64,000 nt of DNA from an uncultured Prevotellaceae bacterium (GTDB lineage Bacteria; Bacteroidota; Bacteroidia; Bacteroidales; Bacteroidaceae). The notes under the pieces are model-generated. The model ran no database searches. It was not told the origin of the DNA and worked only from the letters and a program-made list of their open reading frames with translations. This document shows positions 13,956 through 62,196 of the stretch, one piece after another. Location: assembly GCA_947167515.1 (NCBI GenBank), contig CAMVIM010000002.1, forward strand, positions 62,001 through 126,000, written 5' to 3'. The translations under genes were made by a program, and so were the position numbers. The first letter of the stretch is position 1; each line of letters opens with the position of its first letter.

Positions 13956-15386
13956 ATGAAAAAGATATTGGTTGCCATTGCGCTGATGGCAATACTGCCA
14001 TTGGCAGCTGGCGCACAATTGTTTGACAGTTCGACGGCAAAGACTAAAGCCCAGACAAAATATGGGCAGGTGGCTGGCTACATCGAACGCGGTGTTTACA
14101 CTTACAAGGGCATCCCCTATGCCCAAGCAGAACGCTTTCAGCCAGCCCATGAACCGAAAGCATGGCAGGGTGTGCGCTCCTGCCGCCATTGGGGACCCGT
14201 CTGCCCGCAAACCAAGAACAACGGATGGCGTGGCGACCAGTCAGCTTTCTTTTATCAGTGGAACGATGGCTATCAGAGTGAGGACTGCCAGCGACTGAAC
14301 ATCTGGACGAAAGGGCTGAACGACGGCAAAAAGCGTCCCGTGCTTTTCTGGCTTCATGGTGGTGGCTACACTAGCGGCAACGGACAGGAACACCCAGGCT
14401 ATGATGGGCGCAACCTTGCCGAAAAGGGCGATGTGGTCGTTGTCACCATTAACCATCGCCTCAATGTGCTCGGCTTCCTCGACCTCTCAGCCTTTGGCGA
14501 AAAATACAAGGGGTCAGCCAACCTTGGCATGACTGACATCGTGGCCGCCCTGCGCTGGGTGAAAGAGAACATCGCCAACTTTGGTGGCGACCCCGACTGT
14601 GTGACCATTTTCGGGCAGTCAGGCGGTGGCGGCAAGGTGTCCACTTTGCTCTGCATGCCCTCTGCCAAGGGACTGTTCCACCGTGCCATGGTGATGAGCG
14701 GCTCGTTCCTCGGCAGCACACCCCAACAGGAAGCCCGCGAGGTAGGTCAACTCACAGCATGGTATCTTGGACTTACCACTGAAACCATCGACAGCATCCA
14801 ACACGTGCCCTACGAGCGTTTGCTTGATGCCTCGAACAAAGCCTTCCGCGAAATCAGTAACCGCAATCGTGGCAAGCAGATTGGCCACGGAATCCGCCTT
14901 GGCTGGGGACCCGTAAACGATGGAGCCATCATGCCAGGCATCTTCGAGAATGGCAGCCAGAAAATCAGCAACGACATTCCCCTGCTCATTGGCTCCACAC
15001 TTAATGAATTCTCCACACCCAACGAAGACAAGATGGTGCGTCCCGCTGTCATTCAGCAAGCCACCATTCGCTGCCAAGACGGTGGTGCCCCTGTTTATGT
15101 CTATCTCTCAGCCTATCAGTCGCCCACGGTGGATGGCTCGTTTCATGCCTGTCACAACTCCGACATCCCCTTCTTCTTCAACAATGTGGTGAAGAGTGCC
15201 CAAATGACAGGAGCCACCAAGGAGGGCATCGCTTTGGGCGATAAGATGAGTTCCGCTTTGCTCAACTTTGCCCGCACAGGCAATCCCAACGCAAAAGGGC
15301 TGCCCCAATGGCCAGCCTTCACCCCCGAAACCCAAGCCACCATGCGTTTCGATGCGCCGAAGTGCCAAATCATGTCTAATAGATAA
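13956..15386 (+). CDS. Carboxylesterase type B
   Basis: A 476-residue exported alpha/beta hydrolase. Signal peptide about 1-20; the family start 'GVYTYKGIPYA' near residue 46; the oxyanion region 'LFWLHGGGYTSG'; and the nucleophile Ser222 in FGQSGGGGKVS, with an extra glycine compared with the usual GESAGG. 'SEDCQRLNIWT' is the conserved type-B motif. It sits 26 bases after GH51 and 26 before the second esterase, so it likely removes acetyl, feruloyl or methyl esters from pectic substrates; the exact ester is not visible. It could be called a CE10-type esterase. Confidence 0.88.
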   Translation: MKKILVAIALMAILPLAAGAQLFDSSTAKTKAQTKYGQVAGYIERGVYTYKGIPYAQAERFQPAHEPKAWQGVRSCRHWGPVCPQTKNNGWRGDQSAFFYQWNDGYQSEDCQRLNIWTKGLNDGKKRPVLFWLHGGGYTSGNGQEHPGYDGRNLAEKGDVVVVTINHRLNVLGFLDLSAFGEKYKGSANLGMTDIVAALRWVKENIANFGGDPDCVTIFGQSGGGGKVSTLLCMPSAKGLFHRAMVMSGSFLGSTPQQEAREVGQLTAWYLGLTTETIDSIQHVPYERLLDASNKAFREISNRNRGKQIGHGIRLGWGPVNDGAIMPGIFENGSQKISNDIPLLIGSTLNEFSTPNEDKMVRPAVIQQATIRCQDGGAPVYVYLSAYQSPTVDGSFHACHNSDIPFFFNNVVKSAQMTGATKEGIALGDKMSSALLNFARTGNPNAKGLPQWPAFTPETQATMRFDAPKCQIMSNR

Positions 15387-15412
15387 TTCCATATAACAAG
15401 ACACCTACCTGT

Positions 15413-17089
15413 ATGAAAAGAATCTTGATGGCAGCCCTGCTGCTCACAGCCGTCTTCACAGCGACGGCACAAATCCAAGAGAAGAAAATCACCGTGACCG
15501 AAAACATCGCCTACCGTACCGATGTAGGCCCCAGCACCGTGCTCGACCTCGCACAGCCCCTCTTCGGCCCCCAGCAAAACCGACCCGCCATCCTCATCAT
15601 CCATGGTGGCGGCTGGAGTGCTGGCTCCAAGAACGACATGGTCTATCGCACCCTCATGATAGACTATGCTATGAAGGGCTATGTGGTGGCAAACATGAAC
15701 TACCGCCTCTTGCAGGAAGCACCCCCACCAGCCTGCATCGAAGACGTGCGCTGCGCCATCCGCTGGATGAAAGCCCACGCCGACCAACTGGGCATCGACC
15801 CCGAACGCATCGGCACCTACGGACACTCTGCTGGTGGCCATCTCTCGCTCATGGCAGGAGTGGCAGCCGAGAGCAAGGCATTTGCCGACGACAAAGACCC
15901 GTGGAAAGCCTACTCCTGCCGTGTGGCATGCGCAGCCGGCGGTGCTCCTCCCACAGAGCTGGGACGCCCGGGCAATTCCTTTGGTGACCACACCGAGTGG
16001 TGGCCCATCGGCTACATCGGCAAGAGCGACACCCCCTTCCTCGTTCTGCAAGGCGGCGAAGACCCCGTGGTGCGACCCAACCTCACTGAAGACTGGGTGG
16101 TGAAGATGCAGAAGGCAGGCTCACAGGTGGACTATGTGAAAGTGCATGGTCAGCACGGCGTTGCCTTCGACCAGCAGTTGGAATTCACACGTCCCGCCAT
16201 GGATGCCTTCTATGCTCGCCACCTCAAGCACGACGACCCCAGCGTGAGCTTCGAGCAGATGAAAGTGCCCGACTTCGGTGGTAGCGGACGCCACAAGGCC
16301 ATCGCCGTGCGCGAGAAGACCCTGCCCGACTTCGTTGTCTATCGTCCTGTCAACCTCGATGCAGCCATGACCGTAGGCACTCCCCCCCTGTTTGGCACGG
16401 GCGAACCCCAGAAAGAGAAACTCCCCGTCCTCGTCTTCTGCAACGGCGGTTGCATGGACACCAGCATTGGCTACGAAAACATGCTCACCGACATCGCCTC
16501 CCACGGCTACGTGGTGGTGGCCATTGGCGAACTGCAGATGCTGGCTCAGCATGAGAAAGACCAGCACACCCCCTCGCCGATAGTGAAGAAAGCCCTCGAC
16601 TGGCTCAGCCAGCAAGCCGCCGACCCCAACTCCGCCTACTACAATAGGCTCGACATGGACAAGATAGCCGCAGCAGGTCACTCATGCGGCGGAGCGCAAG
16701 TCTTGGCCAATGCAGCCGACCCACGCCTCAAGACCTACGCTCTCCTCAATGCAGGCATGGGACAGATGAGCATGGCAGATGCCAGCAGCAAGTCGCTCAA
16801 GAACCTCCATGGCCCCATCCTCTACCTCCTTGGCGGCGAAACCGACATGGCATGGAAAAATGCGCAGGCAGACTACAAAGCCCTCAAGAAAGTCCCCGTC
16901 GTCTTTGCCGACAACACCACAAGCGGTCATGGCGGCACCTACCATCAGCCCAACGGTGGAGCCAACTCACGCATGGTGCGCGCCTGGCTCGACTGGCAGC
17001 TGAAAGGCAAGGCCGACCTTGAGAAACTCTTCCTCCAAGGCGACCTCACCGGCTACGATGGCTTCAGCATCAAGCACAAGAACTTCTAA
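15413..17089 (+). CDS. Two-headed alpha/beta hydrolase (BD-FAE-like plus PETase/chlorophyllase-like)
   Basis: A 558-residue exported protein that seems to hold two hydrolase domains. The first (about 25-275) is of the bifunctional/feruloyl esterase-like lipase type: 'ILIIHGGGWSAGSKND', nucleophile Ser139 in YGHSAGGH, a late 'HGQHGVAF'. The second (about 290-545) has its own set: 'VLVFCNGGCMDTS', nucleophile Ser424 in GHSCGGAQ and a late histidine in TSGHGGTY. Its signal peptide DNA matches that of GH51 at 52 of 60 bases. Its place in the arabinan/galactan run suggests removal of two kinds of ester. The domain pairing is read by eye; the function of the second half is uncertain. Confidence 0.8.
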   Translation: MKRILMAALLLTAVFTATAQIQEKKITVTENIAYRTDVGPSTVLDLAQPLFGPQQNRPAILIIHGGGWSAGSKNDMVYRTLMIDYAMKGYVVANMNYRLLQEAPPPACIEDVRCAIRWMKAHADQLGIDPERIGTYGHSAGGHLSLMAGVAAESKAFADDKDPWKAYSCRVACAAGGAPPTELGRPGNSFGDHTEWWPIGYIGKSDTPFLVLQGGEDPVVRPNLTEDWVVKMQKAGSQVDYVKVHGQHGVAFDQQLEFTRPAMDAFYARHLKHDDPSVSFEQMKVPDFGGSGRHKAIAVREKTLPDFVVYRPVNLDAAMTVGTPPLFGTGEPQKEKLPVLVFCNGGCMDTSIGYENMLTDIASHGYVVVAIGELQMLAQHEKDQHTPSPIVKKALDWLSQQAADPNSAYYNRLDMDKIAAAGHSCGGAQVLANAADPRLKTYALLNAGMGQMSMADASSKSLKNLHGPILYLLGGETDMAWKNAQADYKALKKVPVVFADNTTSGHGGTYHQPNGGANSRMVRAWLDWQLKGKADLEKLFLQGDLTGYDGFSIKHKNF

Positions 17090-17144: not shown

Positions 17145-17942
17145 TCAATTCTTAATTCTCAACTCGAATCCCACGTTCCATCCGTTCGTGCCTTCGGGCA
17201 ACAAGGCGATGGAGCCGCCCGAGAGTTGAATCATGCGACGGCATAGGCTCAGCCCTATGCCGTTGCCTGTTTTCTTTGTGGTGTAGAAAGGTACGAAGAT
17301 GTCGTTACGTTCAGCCGTGGGGATGGGTGCGCCATCATTGTAGAACACGATGTGAACCGTTTTCAGTTTGTCGCGGAAAGCGGAGATGAGCACATGCTTG
17401 GCATCGGCCTCCACTGCATTTTTCATGAGATTCATCAGCACCTGCCGCATCAAGTTCGGGTCGGCATGTAGTTGCAAGTTGGCAGGTTCTACTTTCACTT
17501 CTATGTCAACCTCGCCAGCCATAGTCTGCAAGCACCTTAACAAAATCTCCACCTCGATATTTTCAGGTTGAGGTAGTTGCAGCGATGAAAACTTGCGGTA
17601 GCCATCCACAAACGAACGTAACCCCTTCGACGTTTCGTGGATGACCTTCATGCCTTCGTAGAGGTCAGAGTTCCTGATGCTTTCCTCTTGCACGAATGTG
17701 CCCGACAGCGAGACGATGGGAGCCAGCGAGTTCATGATTTCGTGAGTCAGCGTTCGCGTCAGTTTTTCCCACGAAGCCATCTCGATGTCCTGTCGCTGTT
17801 CCTGCATCAGTTCCATCATGTGGTTGATGGTTTCACGTGCTGCACGTTCACCAGGCAGCACCCCTTTCGTCGGAAGACGGAAGGAGAAGTCGCCATTGCG
17901 GATAGCTTCGAGCACAAGGGGGTAGAGAGAGGTGGAAAACAT
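17145..17942 (-). CDS. Short soluble histidine kinase
   Basis: A 265-residue kinase. The H box is 'TRTLTHEIMNSLAPI' (His about 90), the N box 'LMNLMKNAVEADA', the G box 'GNGIGLSLCRRM', ending in a complete HATPase domain. There is no membrane helix or sensor domain: the region before the H box is only about 75 residues, and an in-frame TAG lies just upstream of the start, so the usual N-terminal sensor of related kinases is missing here. It is transcribed after the response regulator at 18052 with a 109-base gap. It probably phosphorylates that regulator. How it receives a signal without a sensor is unclear. Confidence 0.88.
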   Translation of the reverse strand: MFSTSLYPLVLEAIRNGDFSFRLPTKGVLPGERAARETINHMMELMQEQRQDIEMASWEKLTRTLTHEIMNSLAPIVSLSGTFVQEESIRNSDLYEGMKVIHETSKGLRSFVDGYRKFSSLQLPQPENIEVEILLRCLQTMAGEVDIEVKVEPANLQLHADPNLMRQVLMNLMKNAVEADAKHVLISAFRDKLKTVHIVFYNDGAPIPTAERNDIFVPFYTTKKTGNGIGLSLCRRMIQLSGGSIALLPEGTNGWNVGFELRIKN

Positions 17943-18051: not shown

Positions 18052-18573
18052 TTAATTCATCACTCTCAACTTATTATACAGCGTCTGCCGACTGATGCCC
18101 AGCATTTCAGCAGCCAGTCGGAGGTTGCCGTGGCACTTATCCACAGCACTCCTCACGTGGGCCTCTTCCACTTCGGCCAGCGGTCGGATTTGCTGTTGGC
18201 GGTTGATGGCTCCCATCAGCGTGTCCACCAGTTTGTTGTTGTCCCACGGCTTCTCCACAAAGTCGGCAGCCCCACGCTTGAGAGCCTTCACCGCCAATTC
18301 GATGTCGGCATAGGCGGTGAACAGCACCACTGGCACTTCGGGGTGCAACAGCTTGATTTTGTCGAGCCAGAAAAGTCCCTCGTTGCCCGTGTTTAGACCG
18401 AGGGAGAAGTTCATGTCGAGCAACACCACATCGATGGCATTTTGTGCCATCACGGTCGGGATGCTGTCGGGTGCATTGAGGGTGAACACCTGCTCAAAGG
18501 TTTTCTTCAGCAGATAACGCAGCGAGATGAGCACGTTGGGGTTATCGTCGATGATGAGGATAGATTGATACAT
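18052..18573 (-). CDS. Response regulator, receiver plus Fis-type HTH (no AAA domain)
   Basis: A 173-residue regulator. The receiver (about 1-120) has its phosphorylation Asp in VVLLDMNF, the Thr switch in LFTAYAD and the Lys in FVEKPWD. A short linker leads to a Fis/NtrC-type helix-turn-helix ('NLRLAAEMLGISRQTLYNKL'). The sigma-54-activating AAA domain of NtrC relatives is absent, so it should act on ordinary promoters, as in PrrA/ActR-type regulators. The start MYQSILIIDD at 18573 was chosen over an upstream ATG because a TTTG-N20-TACTTTTG promoter (18626-18595) lies between them. Palindromes at 18650-18691 and 21962-21980 are likely its binding sites. Confidence 0.9.
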   Translation of the reverse strand: MYQSILIIDDNPNVLISLRYLLKKTFEQVFTLNAPDSIPTVMAQNAIDVVLLDMNFSLGLNTGNEGLFWLDKIKLLHPEVPVVLFTAYADIELAVKALKRGAADFVEKPWDNNKLVDTLMGAINRQQQIRPLAEVEEAHVRSAVDKCHGNLRLAAEMLGISRQTLYNKLRVMN

Positions 18574-18594
18574 GTGTATTCCTTTTTCTTTTTG

Positions 18595-18626
18595 CAAAAG
18601 TACGCTAAAAACGTCAAAGGGGCAAA
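18595..18626 (-). promoter_or_regulatory. Promoter of the response regulator-kinase operon
   Basis: Minus strand: TTTG (18626-18623), 20 bases, TACTTTTG (18602-18595). The nearest palindrome (18650-18668) ends 47 bases upstream of the -7 box. Confidence 0.6.
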
Positions 18627-18649
18627 AATCTCTGGAGGAAAAAAGAGGC

Positions 18650-18668
18650 GTGTCCAGTTTTTGGACAC
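18650..18668. promoter_or_regulatory. Probable response-regulator operator 1
   Basis: A 19-base palindrome GTGTCCAGTTTTTGGACAC with 7-base arms. It lies 47 bases from the -7 box of the regulator gene itself, which suggests autoregulation. Confidence 0.6.
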
Positions 18669-18672
18669 AAAA

Positions 18673-18691
18673 GTGTCTAATTTTTTGACAC
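18673..18691. promoter_or_regulatory. Probable response-regulator operator 2
   Basis: A 19-base palindrome GTGTCTAATTTTTTGACAC, centred 23 bases from operator 1 (two helical turns). It ends 48 bases before the -7 box of the outer-membrane gene at 18740. Confidence 0.6.
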
Positions 18692-18739
18692 TCCCGATTT
18701 TTCCGCATTTTTCATTCCGCCCCTTTGAGTGAGAGAAAG

Positions 18740-18747
18740 TAACTTTG
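18740..18747 (+). promoter_or_regulatory. -7 box for the outer-membrane protein gene
   Basis: TAACTTTG with no TTG at 19-21 bases upstream, as expected if an activator bound at 18673-18691 is needed. The leader to 18886 is about 130 bases. Confidence 0.55.
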
Positions 18748-18885
18748 TCCATGAAAAGAGTTGCGCACAAGCGTAAACACAGATCAGTTATATGTTTAGT
18801 AAACTTTATTCAAACCATGGTGCTTCGCCTTGGGTCGTGAGGTTCGAGACGAAGATTTTTCCGACAACATCAAAAACCAACCGAT

Positions 18886-21798
18886 ATGAAACAAATACTA
18901 TTTTTATTATTCATCATGAGTGGCGTATTCTGTTCGGCACAGGAAAGCGAACGTAAAATCTCCGTGTGGGGGCACGTGCGCGACTCGTTCACGAAGCAGG
19001 GCATTCGCGATGTGAAAATCACCGTTATGAGTGCCGACAGCACCGTGCTCGACACCACCCGTGTGTGGGGCAATCCACAGCCAGGCGTCAGTTACGATGC
19101 CACCTACAAGAGCCGTGTGCCCGTCGTGGCGCAGCGGCTCATCATCAAGGCCGAACATCCCGACTACGAAGACACCTATGTGAACTTCAATATCCGCTAC
19201 ATCAAGCGCAACACCTTCTTCGACGCTCCGTGGCACTACATGAAGCGGCGGCCCAAGCAGTCCCAACTCTCCGACATGGATCGAGAATTGGACGAAGTGG
19301 TGGTCAAGGCCACAAAGGTGCGCATTGCCTACCGTGGCGACACCCTCGTCTATAATGCCGATGCCTTCAATGTGCCCGAAGGCTCCATGCTCGATGGCCT
19401 GCTCCGTCAGATGGACGGGGTGGAACTGAACGACAATGGCGAAATCAAGGTGAATGGGCGTAAGGTCGATTATTTGACCCTGAACGGAAAAGACTTTTTC
19501 AAGGGACAGAACAAGGTGATGCTGGAGAATCTGCCCTACTACACGGTGAAGGAGGTGAAGGTGTTCAACAAGACCACCGAGCGTAGCGAGTTCTTGGGCC
19601 GCGACGTGGAGGAGAAGGAGTATGTGATGGACGTGCAGTTGAAGCGCGAGTACAGCATTGGCTACATGGGCAACCTCGAGGCTGGCGGCGGCATTGCCAC
19701 TCCCGAAGGTCTTGATGCTGAGCGGACTACGGAGGCCGACCGCTACATGGCTCGCTTCTTTGCCGCCCGATTCTCCGACAACACCCGCATGGCCCTGATG
19801 GGCAACACCAACAATATCAACCAGCAGGGGCGACCCACCCAGAGCGGCGACTGGCGTGACAACACGGGGCAGAACGGACGCACGACCACCCACCGGTTGA
19901 ATGGCAACCTCATGATGAACGGTAAGGACAACAAGGTGACCAACAATGTGGACTACAGTGTGGAGTGGGACCGTGGCGACTTTGTCAGTCGCACCTCGGC
20001 TGAGAACTATCTGAGCAGCGGCAATAGTTATAGCCACAACGAGAGCAACAGCAGGTTGCGTGACTTCACCTTCAATTTCGGCGACAACTTCCGTGTCAAA
20101 CTGCCCCAACTCAAGGTGCCTTTCAACATGGACACGCGCCTTGACCTCACCTACAACCGCCACCACGACTGGAACCAATCGGCCTCGGCCATGTTTGCCA
20201 CCGATCCCTTCGTCCAAGGCATCAGCGAGGCCGACACTGTCAACACCACCCAAAGCAGTTCGCACTATCGCAGCCGCAACTTCAACGTGCAGATGCTGAA
20301 CGCCCTTACCCTCAAACTGCCGTGGGGCGACCACATTGACCTCAACTTGAACGGCCACTATTGGCGCAATCCTGGCGAGGGCGATGCCCAAGAGCGTTAT
20401 CGCTACCATCACGAACCCGACCGCAGTAACGACCGCAACCGCCACGACGACACCCCCAGCCACTCCTACCTCTGGAATGCCCGTCTCAACTACACCATCG
20501 CATGGCTCAGCGGTTGGAGTGTGGAGACCTACGGACGCTATGAGCAGGAGTATCAGAACAACGTCAACGACTACTATACCCTTTCCCCATCCCTCCCCCT
20601 GTATGGGGAAGGTGACCTTGTGGCTGGTTCCTCAATAATCCATGTCCCCGACCTCGCCAACTCCTTCTCCTATGGGCAAATGAGCCGTGACTATCGTGCT
20701 GGCATCGTGTCTGGTTACACCAAGAACGCTGATGGAAACTACACCAACTTCCGTCTCGAACTCCCTGTGCGCCACATCCTTCAGCGCATGGACTATCGCA
20801 GCGACCCCCTCTCCACCTCGCTGAGCCGACACTACACCACCTTTGACCCCTCGGTCAGCCTCTCGGTGGCTCGCAACAACTTCAGCCGCTACTTCTATCT
20901 CAGAGCCAACATCACTCACACCCCGCCCAGCCTTCTCCAGATGCTCGACCGCACCAACACCAACAATCCCTTGGCCGTCATGCTGGGCAATCCGGACTTG
21001 CAGCAGCAGACCGCCTATACCTTCGCTGCCTACTTCCAGCGGTCGGGCGATGCCAAAACGCCCAACCACTATGTGAGCGTGTCGGGAGGCCTCACCGATA
21101 ACCGTGTGGTGCAAGGCTACTCCTACAACCAGCAGACGGGTGTGCGCACCTATCGTCCGGCCAATGTGGACGGCAACTGGTACACAGGGTTCCTCTACAA
21201 TCTGGGCATGCCCCTCGATTCTGCCAATCTCTTCCGCTTCTCACTCGATGCCAGCTACCGCTTGGATCACATAGTCGATTTGGCCAGCACCGACGGCGAC
21301 GGAAACAGCGCGCGAAGCACCGTGTGGGTGCATGGAACAACCTTTTCTCCCTCGCTGCGCTACCAGAAGGATAAGCTCTCCGTCCAACTTTCGGGCAATT
21401 TGACGTGGGAGAACACCCACCGACGCCAGCAGGAGGGCATCACCTCCTCTATGGCTGCCATCAACACCTTCCGCTTCCACTACGGACTCTCCGCCACCAC
21501 CCCCCTGCTGTGGAAAGTTTCCCTTTCCACCGACTTCACCATCTATTCGCGCCGAGGCTACTCCGACCCCTCCATGAACACCAACGAACCTGTGTGGAAT
21601 GCCACCCTCTCGCGCCCCTTCCTTCGGGGCAAGCTCATAGCCCTTCTGCGTGGCTACGACCTGCTGGCTCAGCGCACCAACTTCTCCTACACGGCCAACG
21701 CACAGGGGCGTGTAGAGACCTGGCGCAACAGCCTCGGTCGCTACCTGCTGCTGTCGCTGCAATGGAAGTTTAACCACAACCCGAAAAAGCGCACTTAA
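18886..21798 (+). CDS. Outer-membrane beta-barrel protein of the TonB-receptor type
   Basis: A 970-residue protein. It has a signal peptide (about 1-18), a carboxypeptidase-regulatory-like Ig domain (about 24-125), a plug-like region ('DGLLRQMDGVELNDNGEIKVNGRKVDYL', about 165-225) and a large barrel to the end. It fits the outer-membrane-protein beta-barrel family (PF14905-like), which resembles TonB-dependent receptors but lacks SusC features. It is divergent from the two-component genes and upstream of the FtsX/LolD transporter, with matching operators at both promoters, so it is likely part of an envelope stress or export system. SPSLPLYGEGD (about 20583-20616) is encoded by a fold-back CTTTCCCCAT/ATGGGGAAGG and looks like an in-frame insertion. 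Confidence 0.85.
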   Translation: MKQILFLLFIMSGVFCSAQESERKISVWGHVRDSFTKQGIRDVKITVMSADSTVLDTTRVWGNPQPGVSYDATYKSRVPVVAQRLIIKAEHPDYEDTYVNFNIRYIKRNTFFDAPWHYMKRRPKQSQLSDMDRELDEVVVKATKVRIAYRGDTLVYNADAFNVPEGSMLDGLLRQMDGVELNDNGEIKVNGRKVDYLTLNGKDFFKGQNKVMLENLPYYTVKEVKVFNKTTERSEFLGRDVEEKEYVMDVQLKREYSIGYMGNLEAGGGIATPEGLDAERTTEADRYMARFFAARFSDNTRMALMGNTNNINQQGRPTQSGDWRDNTGQNGRTTTHRLNGNLMMNGKDNKVTNNVDYSVEWDRGDFVSRTSAENYLSSGNSYSHNESNSRLRDFTFNFGDNFRVKLPQLKVPFNMDTRLDLTYNRHHDWNQSASAMFATDPFVQGISEADTVNTTQSSSHYRSRNFNVQMLNALTLKLPWGDHIDLNLNGHYWRNPGEGDAQERYRYHHEPDRSNDRNRHDDTPSHSYLWNARLNYTIAWLSGWSVETYGRYEQEYQNNVNDYYTLSPSLPLYGEGDLVAGSSIIHVPDLANSFSYGQMSRDYRAGIVSGYTKNADGNYTNFRLELPVRHILQRMDYRSDPLSTSLSRHYTTFDPSVSLSVARNNFSRYFYLRANITHTPPSLLQMLDRTNTNNPLAVMLGNPDLQQQTAYTFAAYFQRSGDAKTPNHYVSVSGGLTDNRVVQGYSYNQQTGVRTYRPANVDGNWYTGFLYNLGMPLDSANLFRFSLDASYRLDHIVDLASTDGDGNSARSTVWVHGTTFSPSLRYQKDKLSVQLSGNLTWENTHRRQQEGITSSMAAINTFRFHYGLSATTPLLWKVSLSTDFTIYSRRGYSDPSMNTNEPVWNATLSRPFLRGKLIALLRGYDLLAQRTNFSYTANAQGRVETWRNSLGRYLLLSLQWKFNHNPKKRT

Positions 21799-21802
21799 AC
21801 AA

Positions 21803-21894
21803 CCCCAAAATCGGTCTGAGTCACACCCCTACCATAGGTGTGACTCAGACCCCTATAGGGGGTGTGACTCACACCGATTTTGAGGCTCTGAAAG
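21803..21894. repeat. Fold-back element with three 24-base-period units (copy 2)
   Basis: Units start at 21813 (GGTCTGAGTCACACC, inverted form), 21837 (GGTGTGACTCAGACC) and 21861 (GGTGTGACTCACACC), again exactly 24 apart. Ends CCCCAAAATCGG and CCGATTTTGAGG are inverted copies. It follows the outer-membrane gene stop by 5 bases. Confidence 0.85.
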
Positions 21895-21961
21895 CACCTT
21901 TTTCCCGCCTCTTCCTTTGGCTCTATTTTTAGAGTGGAATTTCACTCTGAAACCCTTCAAT

Positions 21962-21980
21962 GTGTCTAATTTTTGGACAC
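21962..21980. promoter_or_regulatory. Probable response-regulator operator 3
   Basis: The palindrome GTGTCTAATTTTTGGACAC, a hybrid of operators 1 and 2. It ends 48 bases before the -7 box at 22029, the same distance as operator 2 to its promoter. Confidence 0.6.
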
Positions 21981-22005
21981 TTTTTGTCTCCATCCCTTTC
22001 AATGC

Positions 22006-22036
22006 TTGTCTGAACCGTGGGGAATGCTTAACTTTG
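22006..22036 (+). promoter_or_regulatory. Promoter of the FtsX/LolD transporter genes
   Basis: TTG (22006-22008), 20 bases, TAACTTTG (22029-22036). It places the start of transcription near 22043, so translation must start at 22064 rather than at the earlier ATG at 21917. Confidence 0.6.
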
Positions 22037-22063
22037 TGGACACAAAAGAAAGGTGAAGTCCTC

Positions 22064-24505
22064 ATGAAGTCATCCCTGCACACCCATCATGCGCTCGGCA
22101 TCGTCAGTTTGGCGATGGCACTGGTCGTGTGCTATGTGTTCGCCTCCCACGTCTGGCACGAGTCCGAACTCAACTATGCCATCGCCCACCGCGAACGGGT
22201 GTTTCAGGTGGAACAGACGGGGCCGATGATGACAGGCGACCCTTCGCTGCTCACAATGCAGTTGGCAGAACTCTTCCACCAGATGCCCCATGTGGAGGCC
22301 GCCACCGCCTTCAGCCAAGCGGCTCTTGGAGTGGGCAACAACGGATTCACTACCATCTATGGTGATCGGGTGGCCATGCTCGGCACCGTGAGCGATGCCC
22401 TGCCGATGGGACTGTCGGCTTGGGGGCTCGACATGGTGTGTGGCAGTGACAGCTTTGCAAAGGGAGGCATGAGCGGTGTCATCATTCCCGCTTCGGTGGC
22501 CCGGCAACTCTATGGCACCGAGCAGGCTGTGGGTCGTGAACTGCGCTGGTACAATCCCAACACCGACCCTGTGCCTGTGGTCGGAGTTTATCGCGACTTG
22601 CCGGCAGACTGTGGAATACCCAATTCGGTCTATCACACCACCAGCAATATTCGTTTCCCTTCCGATTCTTGGTGGTTCAAGACCTACATCCGGCTGGATC
22701 GTGCCGACCACCTCGGCAGCGTGGAACGCCTCTTCCAGCAACGGCTGGACAGCCTCTGCCATGAGAACCCCTTGCTGGCCAACACCTACGATGGCCTGCA
22801 ACTGAAATACACCTCGCTGGCTCAGCCTTCTGCTGTGAGTCTCACCCTTCCATTCTGCCATGCGGAGATTACGCTTCCGCTCGGTGGAACTGGCGATTTG
22901 GCTCTGTTGCTCTCCTCCCTGTTCGTGTTGCTCATGGCGGCTCTGAATGCACTGAATCTCAGTGTGGCAGCCGTGCCCATGCACATGAAGAGTGTCAACA
23001 CGCGGCTGGTGCTGGGGCAGCCAGTGGGCCAGGTGTGGGGAAACATCGTGGCTGGCAGTGTGGGCAGAGTGGCGGTGGCTTTCTTTCTGGCGGTGCTGAC
23101 GGTGCTGTGCCTGTCGCGGATAGAGGCCGTGCAGATTGTGGCACCACACACCCTGTCGATGACCGATGACCTCAATAGCCGCCTCTTGCTCTTGTTGGGC
23201 GGATTCACCTTGCTTTTGGGACTGCTCTCAGCCCTCTATCCAGCCTATAAACTGACCCATGTGCCGCTCTCTATGGTCATCCGTGCGCGCTATGCCCTTT
23301 CGCCTCGCGGCCGGTGGCTGCGCACCCTCACCCTCTGTCTGCAACTGGCGATGACGAGTGCCATCCTGCTCTGCTTCTCAGTCATCGCTTGGCAAAATCG
23401 TCATGTGCTCAACACCGATTATGGCTTCGACAAGGAACGGTTGCTCTATGCTCAGAACTACCATGTGGAGGATGGCGGCTCCGACGAGGACTTGCGCTCG
23501 GCACTGATGGAGGTGCCAGGTGTGGAGGACGTGAGTTTCACCGATATGGTGCCGTTTGTGTCCATGCAGACCCTGACGCTGTGGCTGTCGGGCCACACGT
23601 ATCTCACTCGCCGCCAGAATGCAGAGGGGACATGGGAGGAAGATGAGGTGTGGAACTTCGGACGAGTAGATACGAACTACTTCCACACGATGGGAATAGA
23701 CGTGCAGGAGGTGAAAGCCTCTCCCGTTCCCAATGACGGGAGTGACCCCTGTCTCGTCTTGCAGCATCGAGTGGCTGACAACTATCATCAGCGACTGTCT
23801 GTGCTGCACCACGGTCGTAATGTCCTTCTGTCAGTGGCAGCCGTGTGTGAAGACCTGCGGCTCAACTCCCTGCGCGAGGCTGACACGTTGGGCATGCGCA
23901 ACGCCTTCATTGTGGGGCAGGAAGTAGGCTCTTCCTATGCGCACGTGATGGTGCGTGTGGCCGAAGGGACCGACAAGCAGGCAATGGCCGACACGCTCTT
24001 CCGCCGCTATGAGCAGGTGCGGCACTTCGGCCGTCTTTATTCTCTGGAAGAGGCAGAGCGTCAGTTCGGTTTTCACGACTATGACGAAGTGGTGGAGCGC
24101 ATCTATGCTGACGAACTCTGTTTTGCCCGACAGATGCTGGTGCTGGCGGTGAGCAGCATCCTCGTCACGCTGTTGGGGTTGCTGGCTGTGGCGGTGGTGG
24201 AACGCCGCTATATGCTCCGCAGCATTGCCATCCGACGAGTGCTCGGCATGACGACGGGCGAAATCCTCCTCATGCAGATGCGCCGTTACGGTCTCCTGCT
24301 CCTTGTGGGGGCTGCCTTAGGCATGCCGCAGGCTTATTGGCTCTCGCGGCAGTGGCTCGCCTCTTTCCACGATTGTGCCGCCATGCCGTGGTGGATGCCG
24401 TTGGCTGTTTTGACTCTGCAGGCTCTCATGATAGGGCTGGTCATCGTGTGGCAAAACCTCCATTCTTCCATGAAAAATTTGACTTTGGCAGTAAAGACCG
24501 AATGA
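22064..24505 (+). CDS. FtsX/MacB-type ABC transporter permease
   Basis: An 813-residue inner-membrane permease with a duplicated layout: a first helix near residues 10-28, a periplasmic MacB-like domain, a three-helix block (about 275-420), then a second helix near 420-440, a second periplasmic domain and a final three-helix block (about 685-800, including 'MLVLAVSSILVTLLGLLAVAVVERRYMLRSIAIRRVLGMTTGEIL', the FtsX signature). Such proteins act mechanically, moving lipoproteins, peptides or drugs across the envelope, rather than as channels. The ATPase follows after 13 bases. The start is set by the promoter at 22006-22036. The substrate is unknown. Confidence 0.9.
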   Translation: MKSSLHTHHALGIVSLAMALVVCYVFASHVWHESELNYAIAHRERVFQVEQTGPMMTGDPSLLTMQLAELFHQMPHVEAATAFSQAALGVGNNGFTTIYGDRVAMLGTVSDALPMGLSAWGLDMVCGSDSFAKGGMSGVIIPASVARQLYGTEQAVGRELRWYNPNTDPVPVVGVYRDLPADCGIPNSVYHTTSNIRFPSDSWWFKTYIRLDRADHLGSVERLFQQRLDSLCHENPLLANTYDGLQLKYTSLAQPSAVSLTLPFCHAEITLPLGGTGDLALLLSSLFVLLMAALNALNLSVAAVPMHMKSVNTRLVLGQPVGQVWGNIVAGSVGRVAVAFFLAVLTVLCLSRIEAVQIVAPHTLSMTDDLNSRLLLLLGGFTLLLGLLSALYPAYKLTHVPLSMVIRARYALSPRGRWLRTLTLCLQLAMTSAILLCFSVIAWQNRHVLNTDYGFDKERLLYAQNYHVEDGGSDEDLRSALMEVPGVEDVSFTDMVPFVSMQTLTLWLSGHTYLTRRQNAEGTWEEDEVWNFGRVDTNYFHTMGIDVQEVKASPVPNDGSDPCLVLQHRVADNYHQRLSVLHHGRNVLLSVAAVCEDLRLNSLREADTLGMRNAFIVGQEVGSSYAHVMVRVAEGTDKQAMADTLFRRYEQVRHFGRLYSLEEAERQFGFHDYDEVVERIYADELCFARQMLVLAVSSILVTLLGLLAVAVVERRYMLRSIAIRRVLGMTTGEILLMQMRRYGLLLLVGAALGMPQAYWLSRQWLASFHDCAAMPWWMPLAVLTLQALMIGLVIVWQNLHSSMKNLTLAVKTE

Positions 24506-24518
24506 AATAATAGAGAAT

Positions 24519-25196
24519 ATGATTCAACTCGAAAACATCACAAAGAGATTCCCCCATACCTTGTCGCTGCGCGACGTGTGCCTCGACATCCCCGATGGCG
24601 AGTTCCTCTGCATCATGGGACCTTCTGGCTCAGGCAAGACAACCTTGCTCAATATCATCGGACTGCTTGATGCACCAACCGATGGGCGTTACCTGTTGGA
24701 TGGGGTGGACGTGTATGCCCAGAGTGAAGCGGCCCGCGCCACCTTGCGTCGCCGACATCTGGGCTTTGTCTTTCAGGCGTTCAACCTGATTGACGAACTC
24801 ACCGTGTGGGAGAATGTGGAATTGCCATTGAAGTTGCTCGGCTATTCGCGCAGTGAGCGTCGGCCACGTGTGGAAGAACTTTTGCGCCGCCTCGGCATCA
24901 GCCACCGTGCGCAGATGTATCCTGCCGAACTTTCGGGCGGACAGCAGCAACGAGTGGCTTTGGCACGTGCCGTCATCAACCATCCGCGTCTCCTCTTGGC
25001 CGATGAGCCTACAGGCAACCTCGACTCCAAGCAGGGACAGGAGGTGATGCAACTCCTCTCCGACTTGCACCACGACCTGCATTGCACCATTGTGATGGTG
25101 ACCCACTCTCACCGAGCCGCTGCCCATGCCGAGAGGGTGGTGGAGTTGTTTGACGGGAGATTGTTGGGGGGTAGGAGTTGTTTTATTGAGAATTAG
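24519..25196 (+). CDS. LolD/MacB-type ABC transporter ATP-binding protein
   Basis: A 225-residue ATPase. Walker A is GPSGSGKTTL (Lys40), the Q loop 'VFQAFNLIDELTVWENV', the signature LSGGQQQRVALARA, and Walker B LLLADEPTGNLD followed by 'VMVTHSH'. The length and 'FNLIDELT' loop match the LolD/MacB/FtsE subfamily that pairs with FtsX permeases. It is encoded directly after the permease and is surely its motor. No membrane-fusion protein or TolC gene is nearby; the outer-membrane protein at 18886 may be the functional outer partner (inference). Confidence 0.93.
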   Translation: MIQLENITKRFPHTLSLRDVCLDIPDGEFLCIMGPSGSGKTTLLNIIGLLDAPTDGRYLLDGVDVYAQSEAARATLRRRHLGFVFQAFNLIDELTVWENVELPLKLLGYSRSERRPRVEELLRRLGISHRAQMYPAELSGGQQQRVALARAVINHPRLLLADEPTGNLDSKQGQEVMQLLSDLHHDLHCTIVMVTHSHRAAAHAERVVELFDGRLLGGRSCFIEN

Positions 25197-61639: not shown

Positions 61640-62196
61640 GATTGGAGCATTTGAATGATTTTACAAAGTTTCTTTCTCGTTCGGAACAGTTTCGAACCGA
61701 TGGTGTTGGGTGGAGAGTCGGTCACGTAGGCGATGTCCTTCACGCTCATCTCCTCATAGTAGAACATCGTGATGAGGCTCCGTTCCTCAGGTGGCAGATG
61801 TTTCAAGGCAGCCCGTATCAGTTGCACCGTCTCAGGGTCAGGATGCCCCAAGGTCGCCTCCACTTCCGCCTCCGACAGCCTTTCCGCCTCTCCGTCCTGG
61901 TCCTCAAAGTAGATGACCTCTCTCCGCTTGTGCCTCAGCCAGGTAATGGACTCGTTGTAGGCGATGCGTGACACCCACGTCTTGAAGGATGCCTTCTCCT
62001 CATTATACATATTTATATTTAGAAAGACCTTCAGGAACACATCCTGATACACCTCCTCGGTATCCTCCACACTCGGCAACAGCCTCACCACTTGGTTGAA
62101 GACATGTCTGCCATATCTCTCAACCATCATCTGCTGAGCCTTGGGGCTTTGTTCCTTCAGCCCCTCTATCAGATTTATCTCTATATCTGTCACCAT
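61636..62196 (-). CDS. ECF RNA polymerase sigma factor
   Basis: A 186-residue sigma-70 factor with region 2 (about 20-90, 'VEDTEEVYQDVFLKVFLNINMYNEEKASFKTWVSRIAYNESITWLRHKRR') and region 4 (about 130-183, 'LPPEERSLITMFYYEEMSVKDIAYVTDSPPNTIGSKLFRTRKKL'). It lies first in an operon with an anti-sigma candidate and an exported protein. Targets are unknown; the operon itself is a likely one. Confidence 0.93.
   Translation of the reverse strand: MVTDIEINLIEGLKEQSPKAQQMMVERYGRHVFNQVVRLLPSVEDTEEVYQDVFLKVFLNINMYNEEKASFKTWVSRIAYNESITWLRHKRREVIYFEDQDGEAERLSEAEVEATLGHPDPETVQLIRAALKHLPPEERSLITMFYYEEMSVKDIAYVTDSPPNTIGSKLFRTRKKLCKIIQMLQS

Follow-up and report, generated by a model that had tools for sequence, protein, structure and literature searches.

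The DNA examined here, a stretch of 64,000 nucleotides from an uncultured Prevotellaceae bacterium (positions 62,001 to 126,000 of contig CAMVIM010000002.1, assembly GCA_947167515.1; herein the window), encodes a two-component response regulator of 173 residues that joins a receiver to a Fis-type helix-turn-helix (HTH), together with three palindromic operators placed at a fixed distance from three promoters. We propose, with a probability of roughly 0.6, that this regulator belongs to a reduced two-component regulon of NtrC descent that serves envelope transport genes; in its history, a single loss of the AAA+ domain would have left the operators in place, and the promoters would have become housekeeping promoters.

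The three palindromes (18650..18668, 18673..18691 and 21962..21980, without strand) match GTGTCNANTTTTTNGACAC exactly. At up to three mismatches, this sequence has five matches in the window against 0.65 expected, a count reached by none of 100 shuffles; the loose form GTGTC-N9-GACAC with one mismatch has four against 2.76 expected (26 shuffles reach four) and does not exceed chance there, which argues that the AT core of the palindrome matters. The first two palindromes are offset by 23 base pairs (bp) between the divergent regulator and outer-membrane barrel genes, and the third is a single site before the FtsX permease gene. From the edges of the 19-mers, the gaps to a TAnnTTTG −7 box are 47 bp at the regulator promoter (TACTTTTG, 18595..18602, minus strand, a box assigned by its sequence and operator distance), 48 bp at the barrel promoter (TAACTTTG, 18740..18747, plus strand, without a TTG 22–24 bp upstream) and 48 bp at the FtsX promoter (TAACTTTG again, 22029..22036, plus strand); from the 17-bp cores (18651–18667 and 18674–18690 in the first two sites) they are 48, 49 and 49 bp.

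Within the regulator (18052..18573, minus strand), the Pfam scan reports only Response_reg (5e-19) and the Fis-type HTH_8 (4e-10), with no AAA+ sigma-54-activating domain; D53 and other receiver residues are invariant in 19 aligned rows. The adjacent histidine kinase (265 residues, 17145..17942, minus strand; HATPase_c 1e-15 in Pfam) has an H-box, recognised by eye, no hydrophobic 19-mer above the hydropathy threshold and no recognised sensor domain. The original prediction, made from the letters of the window, had named the palindromes, their fixed gaps of 47, 48 and 48 bp, the 23-bp pair between divergent promoters and a Fis-type regulator lacking the sigma-54-activating domain, and on all of these it was accurate.

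We searched the bacterium's own genome (3.68 megabases, 74 contigs) with its backwards sequence as the control. Exact GTGTCN9GACAC occurs seven times against three in the control; five of the seven copies have an AT-rich core (the three window sites and, on contig C5, two more sites 23 bp apart), and the remaining two lie on contigs C7 and C14. The palindrome alone at up to two mismatches does not discriminate (nine against five in this genome, and several genomes equal their control). The palindrome followed after 47–50 bp by TAnnTTTG marks exactly four promoters, and none in the control; the genome search suggested with the original prediction thus describes rare, operator-like sites. At the fourth promoter, on contig C5 (locus L038), two palindromes 23 bp apart stand 49 bp from TAnnTTTG and are followed, on one strand, by four GLPGLI genes, a second barrel that is 32% identical to that of the window, and a fifth GLPGLI gene. 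The first of these GLPGLI genes scores 119.9 bits in TIGR01200 (cut-off 50), and the other four are assigned by their resemblance to it, at 34–37%. With this additional operator promoter in front of them, the circuit extends beyond the window's genes and is not the closed one of the original prediction. A divergent glycosidase-like gene (by eye) has a TAnnTTTG at 117 bp and is not counted as a target; together, the run and this gene occupy L038 1750–8806 and 9228 onward. The sigma-54 geometry (the pattern with TGGCA) has no match in this genome, though RpoN is present.

Outside the genus, we scanned named genomes using an alignment of the regulator and took the best 80 of 594 loci, which divide by open frame into 48 short (<230 residues) and 32 longer ones (L222, at 255 residues in the longer class, is cut by a contig end). 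Two 17-bp TGT-N11-ACA palindromes 23 bp apart, with their edge ~49 bp from TAnnTTTG, form a family signature, which the window pair (18651/18674) displays in both directions. Scored as a 23-bp pair with at most two mismatches in 12 fixed positions and TAnnTTTG at 46–51 bp, the signature is found in 41 of the 48 short loci and in none of the 32 longer ones; five first-order Markov shuffles of the short loci each gave 0 of 48. An offset of 23 bp is seen 34 times in the short loci and any other offset from 17 to 60 at most once; the leading offsets in the longer loci are 21 (five) and 22 (nine).

The signature and the regulator also occur together across genomes. At the family level, the strict pattern is present in 10 of 131 genomes and 6 of 30 genera (control 0), and all nine pattern-bearing genomes other than the bacterium's own encode a short regulator, with the site within ~1.1 kilobases in eight; 3 of 16 hand-chosen pattern-negative family genomes encode one. 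Among 45 genomes of the genus, own included, the short regulator is found in 10 (best E ≤1.3e-59), with a fragment of 35 residues, next to a contig end, in an eleventh (G003), and the signature pattern occurs in 11 of these 11 genomes (one with the fragment) and in 1 of the 34 others (G001). A pattern blind to the half-site has 45 matches in 12 of the 45 genomes, and none in the control. Several genus genomes hold two or three paralogous regulator clades, and the half-sites differ by clade: TGTCYAA in the window's clade A, the TGTAAAA type in clade B and TGTATGA in clade C. Indeed, exact TGTATGANNNTCATACA is found in eight genomes, seven with a clade C regulator plus G001, against one match in the control total. 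GTGTCYN7RGACAC occurs in 14 of the 45, with copies that by eye have an AT core in G000, G003, G007, G013, G019, G021, G025 and G026; G028 has a clade A regulator and, by eye, no such AT-core copy.

The promoters themselves share a strict anatomy. In a collection of 85 distinct promoters drawn from the window plus 88 retrieved loci, with gaps of 46–51 bp allowed, the operator-to-box gap is 49 bp in 70, 48 in 10, 50 in 3 and 47 in 2. With TTTG counted twice, a TTG or TTTG starts 24 bp upstream of the −7 box in 11 cases, 23 bp upstream in 29 and 22 bp upstream in 15, a spacing that fits the −33/−7 consensus given for the Bacteroidetes housekeeping sigma factor (PMC7366714). On the opposite side of 80 unique pairs, TAnnTTTG boxes cluster at 37–38, 48–49, 59–61, 70–72 and 80–82 bp; of the 36 such boxes at 15–110 bp, 31 deviate from 49+11k by at most 1 bp, as do 15 of 18 where a regulator gene is recognised on that side (start codons guessed), a phase that was noticed first and counted afterwards, in related loci that are not independent. 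These helix-phased secondary distances suggest class I-like activation. Eleven other opposite-side boxes lie only 8–9 bp from the operator, a distance at which binding would block the promoter. At nine loci (L161, L162, L164, L166, L175, L176, L178, L183 and L055), the operator ends 8–9 bp before TAnnTTTG on the side of the regulator gene, and negative autoregulation is possible there. Among the predicted target proteins of relatives (18 scanned, some twice; the rest judged by sequence start), those of clade A include FtsX permeases, GLPGLI, TonB_C, DUF4837 and GH88 proteins, and those of other clades TolC, FtsX, LolD-like, thioredoxin-like and M60 proteins, a set that points to envelope transport rather than to a cargo.

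The longer relatives have a different promoter beside a similar operator. Tandem palindromes are present, under a looser rule, in 20 of the 32 longer loci (L208 and L210 being near copies), and a TGGCAC-type −24/−12 element (at least 9 of 12 letters) stands 52–56 bp off in all 20 of these; a sigma-54 element at 50–58 bp is found in 1 of the 48 short loci, both counts being without a shuffle control. The palindromes of the longer loci resemble those of the short ones, are 21–22 bp apart and often share the TGTCTAA half-site with them; tandem palindromes are absent from all 15 longer-regulator loci of the genus. Pfam finds the sigma-54-activating domain in all six longer proteins scanned of the 32; Walker A and GAFTGA regular expressions have no match in the longer proteins, and the six read by eye carry variants. 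The TGGCA pattern occurs in 25 of 131 family genomes and 12 of 30 genera, with one control match and with some poor palindromes, and RpoN is found in 43 of the 45 genus genomes, own included. Among the kinases (three rows of this survey are cut by contig ends), all 30 found beside longer regulators have a hydrophobic segment and are mostly of 405–467 residues, 57 of 58 beside short regulators outside clade A have such a segment, and none of the eight clade A kinases, that of the window included, has one.

A quickly built tree of the receiver and HTH sequences (104 rows, without an outgroup root; the incomplete L209 and L222 are excluded) places the 66 short regulators, including that of the window, on one side of a branch with a Shimodaira–Hasegawa-like approximate likelihood ratio (SH-aLRT) support of 99. 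The short branch adjoins longer regulators of Bacteroidaceae, Muribaculaceae and Prevotellaceae; 7 of the 15 genus loci with longer regulators (L018–L032) are in the tree, plus strand only, and all seven sit on very long branches. As regards recognition, the residue after RQTLY (N167 in the window regulator) is N in all 32 regulators that have mostly C at position 4 of their half-sites and differs from N in 18 of the 21 that have A there, so that the two agree in 50 of 53 cases; a nested group (L197, L202 and L205) has the N residue and TGTC sites. Since independent contrasts are few (one well supported, four in all), we take this covariation as a lead only.

We hypothesize that the soluble kinase would phosphorylate the regulator at D53, and that two regulator dimers would bind the two 17-bp palindromes 23 bp apart, the operator centres of which would fall at about −69 and −92, assuming that the TAnnTTTG box starts near −11. 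Held on a fixed face of the helix, the dimers would activate housekeeping-sigma RNA polymerase at −33/−7 promoters in a class I-like manner, and the targets in the window's genome would be the regulator–kinase genes, the barrel, the FtsX–LolD transporter and the unlinked five GLPGLI genes with the second barrel. The ancestor would have been a sigma-54-dependent NtrC-type regulator acting on similar palindromes, which lost its AAA+ domain once; the operators would have stayed and the promoters changed. Input to the kinase may be supplied by a partner protein, of which the ABC (ATP-binding cassette) transporter is one possibility, although this is a guess. A bolder version, which we regard as doubtful, has the regulator family jump a single time between sigma classes with its operators kept: once the AAA+ domain was gone, the −7 box would have come to stand where, counted from the operator, the sigma-54 −24 box had been. 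The kinase of the window's lineage would have lost its membrane sensor, and the transporter under its control may have become the sensor. Four longer loci (L222, L224, L228 and L234; pairs 21 bp apart), in which TAnnTTTG at 49 bp overlaps TGGCGC at 55 bp, could be a picture of the intermediate, though the three of them with rows in the tree fall on a side branch.

Several observations weigh against the NtrC-derived regulon as we describe it. What we observe is the geometry, the co-occurrence, the single branch of short regulators and the sigma-54 elements beside longer relatives; binding and activation, like the direction of change and the partner-protein input, we infer. The signature is missing in 7 of the 48 short loci (one of which, L209, begins five bases before the match), and TAnnTTTG at 46–51 bp is not confined to short loci, as it also occurs in the 4 of 32 longer loci with the overlap. 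The lack of a shuffle control for the sigma-54 elements, the counting of the 11-bp phase after the fact, the unrooted tree drawn from the best 80 of 594 loci and the few contrasts behind the HTH covariation count on the same side, as does a clade C operator promoter in G001 (G001:C28:2286, L120), where no short regulator is found in an assembly that is 88% complete.

Some of these observations could also be accommodated by other explanations. The eleven boxes 8–9 bp from an operator would be expected if the regulator bound its operators and mainly repressed, or activated and repressed depending on distance; we consider this rather unlikely, because the dominant gap of 47–50 bp, seen in all 85 promoters when 46–51 bp was allowed, leaves −33/−7 free and the other operator–box distances keep the helical phase. 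A single loss of the AAA+ domain would also be the wrong inference if the short and longer operators resembled each other by convergence or through a shared preference of the Fis HTH. The tree, quick, unrooted and built from the loci most like a short query, leaves some room for this, as does the pair spacing of 23 bp in short and 21–22 bp in longer loci; however, both groups have the same 17-bp frame, often with the same letters (TGTCTAA), in tandem at promoters, and the grouping of the 66 short rows at an SH-aLRT of 99 makes this reading, in our judgment, unlikely.

That another DNA-binding protein uses the palindromes, and that the regulator is merely their neighbour, would account for the site without a detected regulator in G001 and for the short regulators in three of the 16 chosen pattern-negative genomes. 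Within the same genomes, however, different regulator clades pair with different half-sites, half-site and HTH residue agree in the 50 of 53 cases given above, and the regulator is encoded in nine of nine family genomes with the pattern, which leaves this explanation very improbable. The loose palindrome is at chance level in the window, as would be expected of chance matches or transcription terminators; this origin is contradicted by full-geometry controls that are zero in the own genome, the genus and the family, and by the shuffles, none of which reproduced the signature of the 41 short loci, and we give it practically no weight.

Seen across genomes, several elements of the original prediction need recasting. 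Its pairing of regulator and site is supported by co-occurrence. Autoregulation agrees with the operator at the window regulator's promoter, but such an operator is found in only three of eight window-type loci (G000, G007 and G026), and the three sites, although real, are not the usual unit, which is a tandem pair; the FtsX promoter of the window has one palindrome. The barrel does have an operator promoter, yet it comes from a large family that has 15 matches in the bacterium's own genome and is matched in all 45 genomes of the genus. Our literature search returned no paper on such a makeup, subscription journals lying mostly outside its scope. The regulator is one member of a Bacteroidales family and not an isolated case.

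Among known systems, the closest are the Bacteroidales NtrC-type sigma-54 activators with ABC-transporter neighbours (L223 of Phocaeicola vulgatus, L208 and L219), the receiver and Fis HTH of which are homologous to those of the window regulator. Similar tandem palindromes accompany such activators in the 20 of 32 loci noted above, with none seen at L223; they differ in their sigma-54-activating domain, sigma-54 elements, 21–22-bp pairs and larger kinases with hydrophobic segments. COG0577 ABC-type antimicrobial peptide permeases are predicted to be enriched in Bacteroidia sigma-54 regulons, according to one study (PMC12316311). The window regulator has the two-domain layout of the redox regulators ActR/PrrA/RegA, with no evidence of a redox role. 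These regulators likewise consist of a receiver and a Fis HTH without AAA+; they are not among the rows of our tree, and membership in their family (NF033791) was rejected at 49.0 bits against a cut-off of 250. Rhodobacter capsulatus NtrC and TyrR are NtrC-family proteins that act at sigma-70 promoters and keep AAA+; the window regulator shares with them the move away from sigma-54 and differs in that its AAA+ is gone. A small kinase without an input domain beside an FtsX-type ABC transporter also recalls the BceS–BceAB detoxification modules; Bce kinases have two membrane helices, whereas the window kinase has none, and the regulator is of another type. Of the GLPGLI literature, PG0720 of P. 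gingivalis, reached through that word, is described as a winged-helix regulator (PMC8757827), and a PhoP study (PMC9603813) lists GLPGLI genes without going further.

The remaining genes of the locus are on the plus strand. The barrel (970 residues, 18886..21798) has no Pfam match and is TonB-dependent-transporter-like in its predicted structure (predicted local distance difference test, 75.6); the 50 PDB matches listed are all TonB-dependent transporters, including SusC, although among these matches E is 5e-15 or weaker and the query template-modelling scores are low (0.27–0.36). Its gene starts 138 bp past its −7 box, which makes for a long leader (18748–18885), and an Rfam scan of the window gave no match. 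A strong hairpin lies 3′ of the barrel gene (21803–21883; −51.4 kcal/mol, z −9.0, with none of 200 shuffles equally stable), and L039 by eye has a similar inverted repeat 3′ of its barrel; the hairpin is possibly a terminator separating the barrel from FtsX. The FtsX/MacB-type permease (813 residues, 22064..24505; MacB_PCD and FtsX in Pfam) precedes a LolD/MacB-like ABC ATPase (225 residues, 24519..25196; ABC_tran 1e-34), which falls under the cut-offs for LolD (206 against 307.75 bits) and DarD (239.5 against 375 bits). Beyond the kinase are two esterase-like genes (COesterase and BD-FAE, 13956–17089), which none of the four operator promoters of the genome faces.

Transcription with sigma-54 and transcription with a housekeeping sigma factor start by different mechanisms, and hence it is not obvious how a regulon could pass between them. 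Related bacteria with similar operators apparently show both states, so that the steps of such a move can be tested, and the strict geometry provides a search rule that would predict regulons, including those of GLPGLI proteins and TonB-transporter-like barrels.

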